IMG/VR virus record: IMGVR_UViG_3300031569_000017
Span: 1-39,214 of that record
Length of the DNA stretch: 39,214 nucleotides
Direction: 5' to 3' (one strand)
Origin: a virus
Positions 10,587 through 29,248 of this stretch are shown piece after piece. How positions within the stretch are numbered: position 1 is the stretch's first letter; every line of letters starts with the position of its first letter. The position numbers and the translations under genes are program-made. The notes under the pieces were generated by a model. It saw nothing but the letters and a program-made list of their open reading frames with translations, did no database searches and was not told the origin of the DNA.

Positions 10587-10621
10587 CTTGTTCTAACCTG
10601 AGCTGTTAAGCTCAGAACAAG
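10587..10621. promoter_or_regulatory. Two-part inverted repeat CTTGTT...CTGAGCT / AGCTCAG...AACAAG
   Basis: A 7-bp stem (CTGAGCT at 10598-10604 with AGCTCAG at 10609-10615, loop GTTA) is extended by a 6-bp outer stem (CTTGTT at 10587-10592 with AACAAG at 10616-10621) across a 5-base bulge on one side. It could be an operator read as DNA, or a hairpin in either transcript. No U tract is adjacent. Confidence 0.6.
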
Positions 10622-10662
10622 TATATGTTTGTTGTATAAAAATTATAGTTACATTCGTCTAC

Positions 10663-10689
10663 GAGCTGTGTTCACTTGTGAACAAGCTC
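10663..10689. promoter_or_regulatory. Near-perfect palindrome, operator-like
   Basis: TGTTCAC (10669-10675) and GTGAACA (10678-10684) are perfect inverted repeats around TT. GAGCT (10663-10667) and AGCTC (10685-10689) extend the dyad on both sides with a single extra G at 10668. That gives 12 bp of symmetry in 27 bases, typical for a dimeric repressor site and strong enough for a hairpin. Confidence 0.6.
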
Positions 10690-10715
10690 TCGACTGAGTT
10701 TGTTTATGGATAAAG

Positions 10716-10775
10716 ATATTCGGCTATCTAAGGTACTTTGACTTACAAATCATTGATACCTTGATTGTCGGATAT
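10716..10775 (+). promoter_or_regulatory. Structured early leader
   Basis: Two nested helices are visible: ATATTCG (10716-10722) with CGGATAT (10769-10775), and inside it AAGGTA (10730-10735) with TACCTT (10757-10762). The outer helix uses one U-G pair that is valid only on the plus strand, so it probably forms in the early transcript leader, about 40 bases before the first early gene. Confidence 0.45.
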
Positions 10776-10817
10776 GATTAATCCACTTATCAATACTAAC
10801 TAAAGGGAGAATCTGAA

Positions 10818-10976
10818 ATGAATAAGGTACATGGAAAGAAGCCTAATCAGCTAGTTTTAGACTATAAGATCAGTCATCTAGATATAATTCCTACACCTAG
10901 TAAGCTAACAGTAGATCAGGTGTTTAAGAAGTATATACGTAGATATAACACATATGCAAAGAAAGGAGTTATATAA
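10818..10976 (+). CDS. First early gene, 52-aa basic protein
   Basis: AAAGGGAGAATCTGAA precedes the ATG at 10818. The product starts MNKVHGKKPNQLVLDYKISH, passes HLDIIPTPSKLTVDQVFKKY and ends RRYNTYAKKGVI. It is basic, has no membrane span or signal, and resembles no family I can name. Its stop shares one base with the next start (TAATG). As the first gene transcribed after entry it may act on host functions, but nothing in the sequence proves it. Confidence 0.55.
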   Translation: MNKVHGKKPNQLVLDYKISHLDIIPTPSKLTVDQVFKKYIRRYNTYAKKGVI

Positions 10977-11439: not shown

Positions 11440-11608
11440 GCAGAAGATCTACAATAATGGTAAGACTTATGCACAAAACATTTCAGATGGTACTTTTATA
11501 CCAGTAAAACATATTCAGAATCATAAAGAAGTTATGACTGAAGTTGCTGAAATGAAAGCAATGATGTCAAATATTGCTGAGTTATTAGCAAGTTCGAAAG
11601 ATAAGTAA
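11411..11608 (+). CDS. 65-aa soluble early protein, unknown function
   Basis: A protein beginning MTTKTETDTKQKIYNNGKTY, with a C-terminal helix of heptad character (KEVMTEVAEMKAMMSNIAEL). AAAGGAAAGACG precedes the ATG at 11411, inside the end of the membrane protein gene (29-base overlap). No motif is recognised. It is the last gene before the structured non-coding segment 11609-11990. Confidence 0.58.
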   Translation: MTTKTETDTKQKIYNNGKTYAQNISDGTFIPVKHIQNHKEVMTEVAEMKAMMSNIAELLASSKDK

Positions 11609-11990
11609 AGAGTTAGGACTACCCCCACTTCAGTGTGGGGGATAGCCCACAAGAATATATATCTCTTACGTTGACTGAATAATCTTCGGGAAACGTGATA
11701 AGGTAGTGTTTATGTAGTTTGTGTTAAACCACAGTTTGGGCTACATGAATATGTATGGGTGATGATACACCAGTTTTCCAAAAACTTCACCCCATTGCAT
11801 AGCAGTTCTCAGGGTTGCAACTTTGAGACGAATCTGTAGAAATACAGGTGGTTAAAAATCTATGCACGTATGAGATATATATCATAGTCTAGGTTATGCA
11901 GCTAGGAACCTCGTGATTGCACCATAGTAAAGTTTGATTATGGTAGCCATACATCCGAGAATACTTAAGCCATATGCCTAGACTAAAAGT
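11609..11990 (+). ncRNA. Candidate structured non-coding RNA, about 380 nt
   Basis: No gene is visible, but helices follow one another along the plus strand. They are: CCCCCAC/GTGGGGG (11622-11641) with an outer GG-CTA/TAG-CC extension; ATGTAG/CTACAT (11712-11746) enclosing TGTG/CACA; ATGGGTGA with TCACCCCAT (11755-11795); TGCATAG/CTATGCA (11796-11866) enclosing TCTCA/TGAGA and a CTGTA/TACAG stem with a GAAA tetraloop (11834-11847); TATGA/TCATA (11869-11886); and AGTCTAGG/CCTAGACT (11886-11984) enclosing ACCATA/TATGGT (11921-11944). The helices are nested or adjacent. I could not match it to a named RNA class. The 5' and 3' ends are unknown. Confidence 0.6.
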
Positions 11991-11996
11991 TAACAG

Positions 11997-12338
11997 ATGA
12001 GGAAGCACTTACGTGCTACAAAAATTATGATGGAACACAGTAGAGTAATATTCAAGAACAGACTACGTGGTAGGAAGATAAGTCTTAAGAGAGGATTAGA
12101 GATTATCTACAAGTTACCATTTACAGGATTTATACGTAACGATAAATTTTGGTGGTGGCGAAACAATATTGACTGGATTAAATATTTACCAATAGAGTAT
12201 CCTAGTCAAGGTATGCTTATGATTGTTAGGTTAAACGTAGATAGTAAAGATCCTAACACTATTAGAGTAGTTACCACCGGTGGTTTCAGTAAGCGAAAGC
12301 CACAGGTGCTTAAGAAAATATATGGAAAAACTAACTAG
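11997..12338 (+). CDS. 113-aa basic protein, unknown function
   Basis: The frame opens just after an in-frame TAA, so the ATG at 11997 is the earliest start. It has no Shine-Dalgarno, and the ATGs at residues 11-12 are alternatives. The first 45 residues are strongly basic (RVIFKNRLRGRKISLKRGLE). Next comes an aromatic segment NDKFWWWRNNIDWIKYL (about 49-65), then beta-prone pieces (GMLMIVRLNVDSKDPNTIRV). Nucleic acid binding is possible from the charge. The next gene begins eight bases after its stop with its own AGGAGG. Confidence 0.5.
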   Translation: MRKHLRATKIMMEHSRVIFKNRLRGRKISLKRGLEIIYKLPFTGFIRNDKFWWWRNNIDWIKYLPIEYPSQGMLMIVRLNVDSKDPNTIRVVTTGGFSKRKPQVLKKIYGKTN

Positions 12339-26008: not shown

Positions 26009-29000
26009 TTAAAACAATGTCTTGTATGGATCTCTCACAAGCCCTCCTAGTTTATATTTAGTATATCTTGGTCCTTTATATCTAGGATGACCTGACTGTC
26101 CTAATACGAAATCTAATGCTACATCAGCAGCTACGTCTGCTGGTACACCACCTTGTTCTAATTGTTCTTTAGTAGATCTTACTGCACTTTGTAACCAAAT
26201 AGGTAAGAATCTTGATCCTGCGTGTCCACCTATTTTCATAGCTTTTTCAATAGCATTATCATCATTCTTAGTAATACTTGGTGAATAGCCAGTAGTCAAA
26301 TATTGTTTATTAGTAATAACTTCTGTTACAGTTCTAGGTAAAGAACCAATCTTTTTAAGAGCTGTTTTTTGTGGATCTGTAATCCAATGAAATGGCTCCA
26401 TTAATTGTTTAGAGAATGTAAGTACATCTCCATTACCTAAATCTATTCTAGTAGGATCTTTGTTTTCTAATACTGATTTACCTGAAAATGCATAATTCAT
26501 AGCATTTCCTACTACTGCAAATATAAGTGCAGCTTTAGCAAAGTAATAACTATACATACGTCTTGCATCTGAATTAGCTTCAAATGCAGGTAATCCTTTA
26601 CCTATAATTCTTAAGTTAGATATAGTCCAATCAGGTGCAAACATAAGTAGTTGCATATAACCTCTAGATCCTGGTTGGAATGTAGTCTGTGCTAAACTTT
26701 TAAATATTGGTGTTTGTATTCTTCTAGTCATAGCAAACCAATCTTGACCACCAAATGCGTCATTAGTAAATTGTGCTGCTAGTCTAGCTTTACTATATAT
26801 ATGTGCTTGTGTTTTATCAGTAGGATCTATTATTTTATTTAATTGTGTTAAAAATGTGTAGAGTTTAGCATGTGTAAATATTCTATCCCATGTAATTCTA
26901 TCAAAGAATTTAAATACTTTTTCTATATTTTCACCTTGTTTAATACCAAGCTGATGTTTTAATAGTCTGTCAAACTTACGCATTTGTCCATAGAATCTAT
27001 CAAATCCAACATCTTCAGGTGTTGAAATAACTAATCTTGAAGCTTGTGCAAATCTAACTACATCATTAAAACCAAAATCTTTAATAGCTTGATTAGCATG
27101 AGGAAATTCTTTTAAATAAATTCCAGGATTTTCAATCATTTTCATGATTTCTGTTTTTTCTTTTCTAAATGCTTGTTTAGTAAATTTAACAATTACTTTA
27201 GCAGGTACAGTAGAAAATATCATACTTTCAATTAAAGCTCCTGCGTGAAAAAATGATCCTCCCACAGCTAATCTTTTCATCATAAGATTTGTTGTAAAGA
27301 TAGCAGACATTAATTCACCTTCTGTTGTTGCGTCAAAAACCATACGTAATGATTTTTCTGTACCACGTGCTACATAAGTAGCATCTCTTTGACCTAAGAA
27401 AGGGTGATTAAATTTTGTGTAATGTGTTCCTAAATATTTACTATACGTTCCTACTTGTCTAGGATTGTTAATCATTAAAGGAAGTTTAGCTGTAAATCCT
27501 TGACCAACAGGTATAACAAGAGGACTGTATTTAGCATTAGTTAAATACTTAATCATTTGTCTTGTCATTAAAGCTTTAGTAACTGAGCTAGTATATATTC
27601 TTAATAATTCAGCTGGATCGTCCATGCCTTTCTTAAGATTATAACCTGCTTTATAACCTTCATTAATATCAGAAAATCTTCTTTGTTTACCAAATTTTGT
27701 TACTGTAGTATTTCCATAAACTTTTTCATTAAATTTTTGTGCAAAGATTAAAGGTTCTTTTTCAAATGTATCCCATAATAAAGGCAAATAATTACTTCTG
27801 TATGATTTAATAAGTGTTGGATCTAGTTTATCTAGTTCAGCATATAAACCATCTAATGTTTTTTTAATATAGAAAGCACCTTGTGCTTCTGTTTTAGTTA
27901 AATCTTTTAATGTAAGTTGTTTACCATTAAGATCAAAGTCTAGATTTTTATTAACTTTAGTTCCTTGTATGTAATGAAATACTTTAGATTTAGAAGTTTC
28001 ATCAGGTAAAAATTCTTTAATTCTATTAACTAAAGGTATAGATGAACTTTCTAATTTATTATGATAAACATGCATTGCATCTAATGCATTTTCCATTGTA
28101 TTAATACTTTTAGTTTCAAGTTGAGAAGGCATAGTTCTCATTAATTTATAAAGACCTTTACCTGCTAAATATATACCTACACCTGCACCAAAACCTATAG
28201 CTGATTCTTGTAGTTTATCTTTAGGCTCTGTTAAAAATTGTGCAGTTGCTCCTATAGCTCCAAAACTCGCTGCTTTAAATGCAGTTGCTTTTGCCATATC
28301 TAAAGCATTTTCTATTGGTCTTTTTAAAGCAATATCTATTTGACTAGATAATCTTGCAAATTCTTCATCTGATACATTACTTAATGTTTTTTTTAATTCT
28401 TTAATAAGAGCATTAGTTGCTACTCTACCATTTCCATCAGAAGTAAGTTCTAATAGTTTGTCAGCTCTCATATTTTTTGTAGCTCTAATAAAAGCTTGTC
28501 TAACTTGTGGTTCAGCAATACCTAGATCTCTAGCAGCTAATGCTGGTATAGCTCCAAATACAGTACTCATTACGAGTCCAGCTGTTGCACCTATAGTAGT
28601 CTCTGTAGTAGTTCTACTTAAAGAGATCTCTCCTTTTTCACCTAATTGTAATCCAGTAGAAAAAGCTAATGGTGTAAATAAAGCAGCAGCTGCTCCATAT
28701 TTAATATCTTTACGATATTTCTGTTTAAACTTGTCATCTACATATCTAAATCTTTTAGAGTATTTAGCACGTGTAGCATTGACTACCCCCCTGCCTAGTC
28801 TTGTAAAAAATAAACTTGGTACAGCTAATAAATAAGGGTCTGCTACTACCATGTTAACTAGCTCAGCACCCATAATACCAGGATGTTTTTTTGCTAGTTT
28901 AACTACTTCTCCAAAATCAAATTTCTGTTCACCTTCTTCTAAAAGGTAACCAAATTTATTATATATTCTTTCAGCTTCTTTATACTGTCCAGTATTTCTT

Positions 29001-29248
29001 AATTCAGGGAATCTTTGTAAAAATCGTTTAGCATCTAATGCTTGTTTCTTTTTAGTATTACCAGTTATCCATTGATACAATGATGCAGGTAATGATTCTT
29101 CGAATAGAAGCTCCATTGGGTTTCTAAGTGTTTGAAAAAAACCTGGAGGCTTTTGTATTTCGTTTTGCAAAGGATCTTTCAAGGGATCTTGAACATCCTT
29201 TATAGGATCCTTTAGATTAGGGTCGTTAAATCTAAAGTCATTTGCCAT
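26009..29248 (-). CDS. Large internal virion / ejection protein with LPD38-like region
   Basis: The largest protein here (1079 aa). The N-terminus is polar and disordered (DFRFNDPNLKDPIKDVQDPL). Several hydrophobic Gly/Ala stretches follow: about 195-215 (AAALFTPLAFSTGLQLGE), 225-245 (TIGATAGLVMSTVFGAIPAL) and 345-370. The C-terminal third has the features of the large polyvalent-protein domain I know as LPD38: LAAQFTNDAFGGQDWFAMTR (about 855-874), FAPDWTISNLRIIGKGLPAF (about 895-914), and a final membrane-prone FAKAALIFAVVGNAMNYAFS. Such proteins are packaged and ejected into the host with DNA, like T7 gp15/gp16. Position within the virion-gene block supports this. Confidence 0.68.
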   Translation of the reverse strand: MANDFRFNDPNLKDPIKDVQDPLKDPLQNEIQKPPGFFQTLRNPMELLFEESLPASLYQWITGNTKKKQALDAKRFLQRFPELRNTGQYKEAERIYNKFGYLLEEGEQKFDFGEVVKLAKKHPGIMGAELVNMVVADPYLLAVPSLFFTRLGRGVVNATRAKYSKRFRYVDDKFKQKYRKDIKYGAAAALFTPLAFSTGLQLGEKGEISLSRTTTETTIGATAGLVMSTVFGAIPALAARDLGIAEPQVRQAFIRATKNMRADKLLELTSDGNGRVATNALIKELKKTLSNVSDEEFARLSSQIDIALKRPIENALDMAKATAFKAASFGAIGATAQFLTEPKDKLQESAIGFGAGVGIYLAGKGLYKLMRTMPSQLETKSINTMENALDAMHVYHNKLESSSIPLVNRIKEFLPDETSKSKVFHYIQGTKVNKNLDFDLNGKQLTLKDLTKTEAQGAFYIKKTLDGLYAELDKLDPTLIKSYRSNYLPLLWDTFEKEPLIFAQKFNEKVYGNTTVTKFGKQRRFSDINEGYKAGYNLKKGMDDPAELLRIYTSSVTKALMTRQMIKYLTNAKYSPLVIPVGQGFTAKLPLMINNPRQVGTYSKYLGTHYTKFNHPFLGQRDATYVARGTEKSLRMVFDATTEGELMSAIFTTNLMMKRLAVGGSFFHAGALIESMIFSTVPAKVIVKFTKQAFRKEKTEIMKMIENPGIYLKEFPHANQAIKDFGFNDVVRFAQASRLVISTPEDVGFDRFYGQMRKFDRLLKHQLGIKQGENIEKVFKFFDRITWDRIFTHAKLYTFLTQLNKIIDPTDKTQAHIYSKARLAAQFTNDAFGGQDWFAMTRRIQTPIFKSLAQTTFQPGSRGYMQLLMFAPDWTISNLRIIGKGLPAFEANSDARRMYSYYFAKAALIFAVVGNAMNYAFSGKSVLENKDPTRIDLGNGDVLTFSKQLMEPFHWITDPQKTALKKIGSLPRTVTEVITNKQYLTTGYSPSITKNDDNAIEKAMKIGGHAGSRFLPIWLQSAVRSTKEQLEQGGVPADVAADVALDFVLGQSGHPRYKGPRYTKYKLGGLVRDPYKTLF

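Follow-up and report, generated by a model that had tools for sequence, protein, structure and literature searches.

What fills a gap of about 380 bases without a convincing gene in the early region of a virus genome? To answer this question we analyzed an IMG/VR virus record of 39,214 bases with 32.7% G+C (the whole stretch is called the window in the following), for which a preliminary description had proposed a new phage structured RNA at 11609–11990. The gap itself is real, as the 65-aa gene upstream of it stops at 11608 and the next gene has its conserved start at the ATG of position 12027, judged from where the alignments of its relatives begin. The mechanically predicted ORF of this basic downstream gene starts at an ATG at 11997, which is found only in the closest relatives, and encodes 113 aa, of which 103 aa (12027–12338, plus strand) are counted from the conserved start. 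The gene belongs to no Pfam or PHROGs family and served as anchor for fetching the related loci from IMG/VR (L002, L003 and so on). At 12000–12020, a small hairpin (AGCACUUACGUGCU) separates a GAGGAAG resembling a ribosome-binding site from the conserved ATG. As the portal protein of the window is closest to that of Pelagibacter phage HTVC106P among the named phages (51% identity), a SAR11-type bacterium can be inferred as the likely host. Elsewhere the window encodes a 1079-aa protein (26009–29248) for which neither PHROGs nor Pfam gave a match at the thresholds used. Ahead of the early operon, the spacer carries long hairpins (window 10591–10858; L019:780–1131; L017:169–416; L130:2510–2661; L139:2359–2562) with z-scores of −3.4 on both strands in the window and −11 in L019; they look alike among the relatives with changed stem letters and might represent a bidirectional terminator together with an early leader.

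The plus strand of 11600–12000 folds with −127.5 kcal/mol compared to −93.6 ± 5.4 for dinucleotide shuffles (z −6.3), the minus strand gives a z-score of −4.4, and the most stable 200 nt on the plus strand of the window fall within the gap. The stems, the GAAA tetraloop (11839–11842) and the 8-bp AGTCTAGG/CCTAGACT helix that had been picked out by eye are all present. The picture of nested or adjacent helices holds as far as the strong folding is concerned, but the helices belong to two separate domains (11654–11882 and 11883–11986) and not to one nested structure. The gap thus starts with a GC-rich hairpin (H0, 11616–11648, plus strand, GGACUA-CCCCCAC..GUGGGGG-AUAGCCC) closing the upstream gene, followed by a 229-nt domain and a second domain of about 100 nt. 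H0 was found after the upstream small gene in all relatives that were read, with or without the RNA described below and with changed stem letters, and it is possible that it acts as a processing or 3'-end-stabilising hairpin.

For the 229-nt domain (11654–11882, plus strand) eight further distinct members with 56–97% identity were found in phages from IMG/VR, giving nine distinct members of 229–290 nt (window, L012, L002, L135, L137, L141, L143/L144, L140 and L153), and all RNA members known here come from metagenomic virus contigs. The RNA of L012 is 97% and that of L002 about 64% identical to the window, and the more distant relatives L135, L137, L141 and L143/L144 carry the same RNA again. 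Its position was identical in every case, behind the small gene with its hairpin and in the same direction as the early genes, with one strong covariance model match per record and a sole second match that was weak and antisense. The domain of the window folds with a z-score of −6.4 on the plus and −4.1 on the minus strand, and for seven members z-scores from −3.8 to −8.5 were obtained with the plus strand always being lower than the minus strand.

When a plain MAFFT alignment was searched for covarying helices without guidance, the top helices included the long-range helix A, the stem of arm P5 and the extension of the closing stem P1. Counting 34 pairs in seven members, all 238 cells were paired and 15 pairs were changed on both sides, while sliding the partners by one column as a control left only 29.8% and 29.4% of the cells paired. 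This count was made on a trimmed alignment from which the variable arms had been cut out and in which the strands of arm P4 had been placed by hand, so that the count for P4 is biased in favour of the structure. We built a covariance model (R1) from these seven members without L140 and L153, and it found these two unseen members at the same site with 159 bits (E 1e-38) for L140 and 101 bits (E 1e-23) for L153, both of which keep the helices. In the nine-member alignment fitted to R1, 99.6% of the cells are paired and 14 pairs are changed on both sides. The strongest test is L153, which was not found until the model had been made: its P1 extension reads GGUCG/CGACC against UUACG, UCACG or UCUCG with CGUAU, CGUGU or CGAGU in the others, always adjoining the same U·U mismatch, and its helix A is GACUAGU/ACUAGUU. 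With nine sequences including close pairs the covariation is clear but limited, and shuffles do not remove relatedness; the blind recovery of two members and the full replacement in L153 do not depend on the shuffle control. The covarying base pairs expected for a real RNA, and the covariance model from homologous contigs that had been suggested for finding them, have therefore both been obtained, and the general criterion for a conserved structured non-coding RNA, compensatory changes in independent relatives beyond controls, is met. This shows that window 11654–11882 belongs to a family of structured non-coding RNAs in marine podovirus-like phages, which appears to be undescribed so far.

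The domain is closed by the 15-bp stem P1 with an invariant U·U mismatch, in which 11655–11670 pairs with 11867–11882 (5' strand 11655–11665, mismatch of 11666 with 11871, extension 11667–11670), and across the nine members five of its pairs are changed on both sides, among them GGUC/GACC in L153. GGGAAAC (11688–11694), flanked by the conserved segments GACUGAAUAAUC and GAUAAGGUA, is the 5' strand of the 7-bp helix A found by the unguided search, which pairs with 11773–11779 (alignment columns 36–42 with 183–189) and is 100% paired in nine members with five pairs changed on both sides. As helix A joins the loop of the conserved 5' segment to the interior of arm P4, it forms a pseudoknot with P4. 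It is absent from the single-sequence fold, and the structure read from the window alone accordingly stands only in part, as the second half of an apparent hairpin at 11666–11697 pairs with 11773–11779 in all relatives. Arm P3 (11708–11750; GUUUAUGUAG/CUACAUGAAU in the window) is variable in sequence and length and replaced by other hairpins in the relatives. In arm P4 (11755–11795), 11755–11762 pairs with 11787–11795, leaving one base bulged, and the arm encloses an A-rich run and the 3' strand of helix A; the P4 helix is kept with different letters in all nine members, and four of the five counted pairs covary in the seven. Arm P5 (11796–11866) consists of a 7-bp stem (paired to 98.4% across the nine members and with both sides changed in four pairs), a conserved CAGU joint, two hairpins and an A-rich joint ending with AAAUC. 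Its hairpin 2 (11832–11849) carries the GAAA tetraloop, and the members show ordinary loops here (UUCG, GAAA or 3 nt). We also considered a bistable switch (P2a), in which YWC after the U·U mismatch would pair either with the 3' strand of P1 or with GUGA (columns 43–46); it fits seven members and was rejected, as L140 and L153 disrupt the second pairing.

Hairpin 1 of P5 (11807–11828) has an 8-bp stem and the self-complementary loop UUGCAA (11815–11820). The same loop is present in L012, L002, L143, L140 and L153, and L135, L137 and L141 have UUCGAA. Both forms are self-complementary, and they are found on stems that differ strongly among the members. By eye, no conserved segment complementary to this loop was found elsewhere in the RNA, and therefore a kissing contact within a homodimer is the simplest reading. 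The RNA perhaps homodimerises via this palindromic loop, an inference that rests on the two self-complementary loop forms only, and it is possible that UUCGAA is a T-loop instead.

The second domain (C, 11883–11986, plus strand, closed by AUAGUCUAGG/CCUAGACUA) folds separately with a z-score of −4.9. L012 and L002 retain it, with C-G replaced by U-A in the inner stem. In L140 this slot is taken by a different domain (z −3.7) whose outer stem is similar; beyond this stem it does not align with the domain of the window, and we rejected it as a homologue.

A better protein-coding explanation, which would have refuted the RNA if a conserved reading frame had been seen, was not found: stops occur in each of the six frames in all nine members, the longest open stretch has 54 codons and its frame differs among the members, and the coding reading was rejected as no frame is open through any member. 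Downstream of the RNA a scan identified an intrinsic terminator in L135 and L141, and a similar one is readable in L137. In the window neither a terminator nor a good promoter was found next to the RNA, and its RNA may for this reason simply be part of a longer mRNA. Early transcription is plausible from the gene order, without any expression data.

To take a closer look at the site, we compared the loci of the relatives between H0 and the downstream gene. Among the closest relatives its content differs from phage to phage, with a different structured element in L003, L007, L008 and L010, small ORFs in L004, L006, L009 and L011, and nothing in L005. L152 and L153 share their flanks (the H0 hairpin on one side and CAGAAAGGATAnTATG on the other), and the RNA is present in L153 while L152 has a clean empty site; in L151 a 142-aa ORF is found instead. 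The gene after the RNA also varies among the members (a 103-aa, a 41-aa or a 77-aa gene, or a terminator first), and L151 and L152 keep the 77-aa gene without the RNA. Thus, the presence of the next gene is independent of the RNA, which is not tied to one gene. Absence from relatives, together with pairs that do not covary, had been named as a result that would speak against a structured RNA. The RNA is indeed missing in some close relatives, but there the difference is that of a clean cassette and not of decay. Because syntenic phages exist cleanly without it or with small genes or other structured elements in its place, the RNA is a dispensable, removable cassette at a hypervariable site.

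Several of the other occupants are structured themselves. Element D (L003:3706–3828, L007:3708–3830 and L010:3677–3797) consists of ACGACUGGC..GCCAGU and a second long hairpin with a GCGCUAG loop; it folds well, and its three copies are too alike for covariation testing. L010 has two more structured stretches, one on each side of element D. In L006 (2800–2925) and L011 (3400–3530) another long AU-rich hairpin element is followed by small ORFs, and the ORF at the site in L011 is weakly GIY-YIG nuclease-like (E 0.03, below the family cut-off). L131 and L140 are parts of one contig (IMGVR_UViG_3300030098_002339, 88,284 bases) with two diverged copies of the early locus about 43 kb apart, only one of them having the RNA; this contig may be a chimeric or joined assembly.

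The Rfam check supports a new RNA: none of the 4227 models of Rfam 15 matched the window, with only a chance P9 match (E 6.8) in the gap, and eight loci, six with members and two with alternative elements, gave no match up to E 0.5. In named phages no homologue was found by blastn with the elements of the window, L143 or L135 except for short chance matches, the RNA element was not found in HTVC106P, and in a genome collection a strict pattern had no match and a loose one had two chance matches in GC-rich sequence. Two large RNAs, GOLLD and ROOL, had been named as comparable before. GOLLD is a structured non-coding phage RNA with kissing loops and unknown function, also found in marine samples, and ROOL is a phage and prophage RNA of unknown function with pseudoknots, forming RNA-only multimers via kissing loops and A-minor contacts (PMC12286853). 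The comparison describes a likeness of kind, as the RNA analyzed here is also structured, non-coding, marine and of unknown function like GOLLD and has a pseudoknot like ROOL, but there is no homology and it has less than half of their size. Many GOLLD are longer than 800 nt and close to tRNA islands, whereas no tRNA was found in the window; ROOL has about 660 nt and different helices, and multimerisation is only inferred here from the palindromic loop. The criteria for both families, a model match and 600–900 nt beside tRNA genes, are therefore not met. Another early-region phage RNA, the pRNA of phi29, oligomerises by loop–loop pairing and keeps its structure while the sequence diverges. Our RNA resembles it in its location and its conservation of structure, with loop–loop oligomerisation being inferred only, and differs in being dispensable and without an Rfam match, as pRNA is essential for packaging in phi29-like phages. 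The manA, wcaG and PhotoRC-II motifs are structured marine-phage RNAs from comparative genomics (PMC2864571). In contrast to these metabolic or photosystem gene-associated motifs, the RNA described here has no fixed downstream gene. Non-coding RNAs are not mentioned in the pelagiphage literature searched, and since there is neither a match to Rfam nor to GOLLD or ROOL, the family appears to be undescribed within the sources available. The 229-nt domain thus appears to be a new RNA family with unproven function.

With regard to this function, we lean, with some reservation, towards a stable early phage RNA acting in trans as an accessory factor. Transcribed as part of the early operon, it would be released either through processing at the upstream hairpin or, in phages that have one, by a terminator, and would then bind a factor of the host or the phage, probably in the form of a homodimer joined by the palindromic loop; trans role, release, partner and dimerisation are inferred here, as is the early transcription. 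An accessory role in host takeover or counter-defence fits better than a core role because the RNA is present in some phages and absent from others, is swapped with small genes and has fast-changing outer arms. A cis-acting mRNA element, being a leader, a riboswitch-like or a stability element that tunes the downstream or protects the upstream early genes, is a less expected explanation that has to be taken seriously. It would agree with the constant orientation within the early operon and with L153, where no more than about 10 nt separate the closing stem from the next ribosome-binding site, and it is not excluded because the window itself shows no terminator. A trans role is nevertheless favoured, as the gene downstream changes among the members and relatives with the same gene order, such as L151 and L152, do without the RNA; also the would-be switch P2a is not kept in L140 and L153, and neither a fixed class of downstream genes nor two mutually exclusive conserved pairings were found as required for a riboswitch or cis leader.

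The cassette behaviour at a hypervariable site could also be explained by a mobile ribozyme-like or intron-like element entering it, with the pseudoknot as remnant of a catalytic core. Helices A and P4 are two long helices that cross like P3 and P7 of group I introns, and the weak GIY-YIG similarity in L011 would point in the same direction, but Rfam found no group I or group II intron or other ribozyme, most members have no hairpin in the P8 position, and there is no exon and no interrupted gene, as the RNA is intergenic between two intact genes with one site only and one copy per record, which makes this explanation improbable. We give hardly any weight to the possibility that the element is not an RNA but a recombination or replication site in the DNA or a chance fold of degenerate spacer: the region is intergenic and hypervariable and its reverse strand also folds well, yet the plus strand always folds better, loop and joint sequences are conserved, and helix A stays paired by means of seven G-U cells, which are possible only in RNA of the plus strand. 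Returning to the trans-acting RNA, its most specific form remains tentative, namely a pseudoknotted self-dimerising RNA that may act on a host factor early in the infection of ocean bacteria, from a hypervariable cargo site where small proteins and several unrelated structured RNAs are exchanged between phages.

Of all RNAs that have no known function, structured phage RNAs such as GOLLD and ROOL rank among the most striking. With about 230 nt the RNA described here is small enough to be made, probed and solved, covariation now backs its secondary structure including the pseudoknot, and there are natural relatives both having and lacking it. Its carriers are probably phages of the highly abundant SAR11-type bacteria, and a site exchanging structured RNAs with small genes would suggest that such RNAs are accessory phage cargo, like small anti-host proteins.
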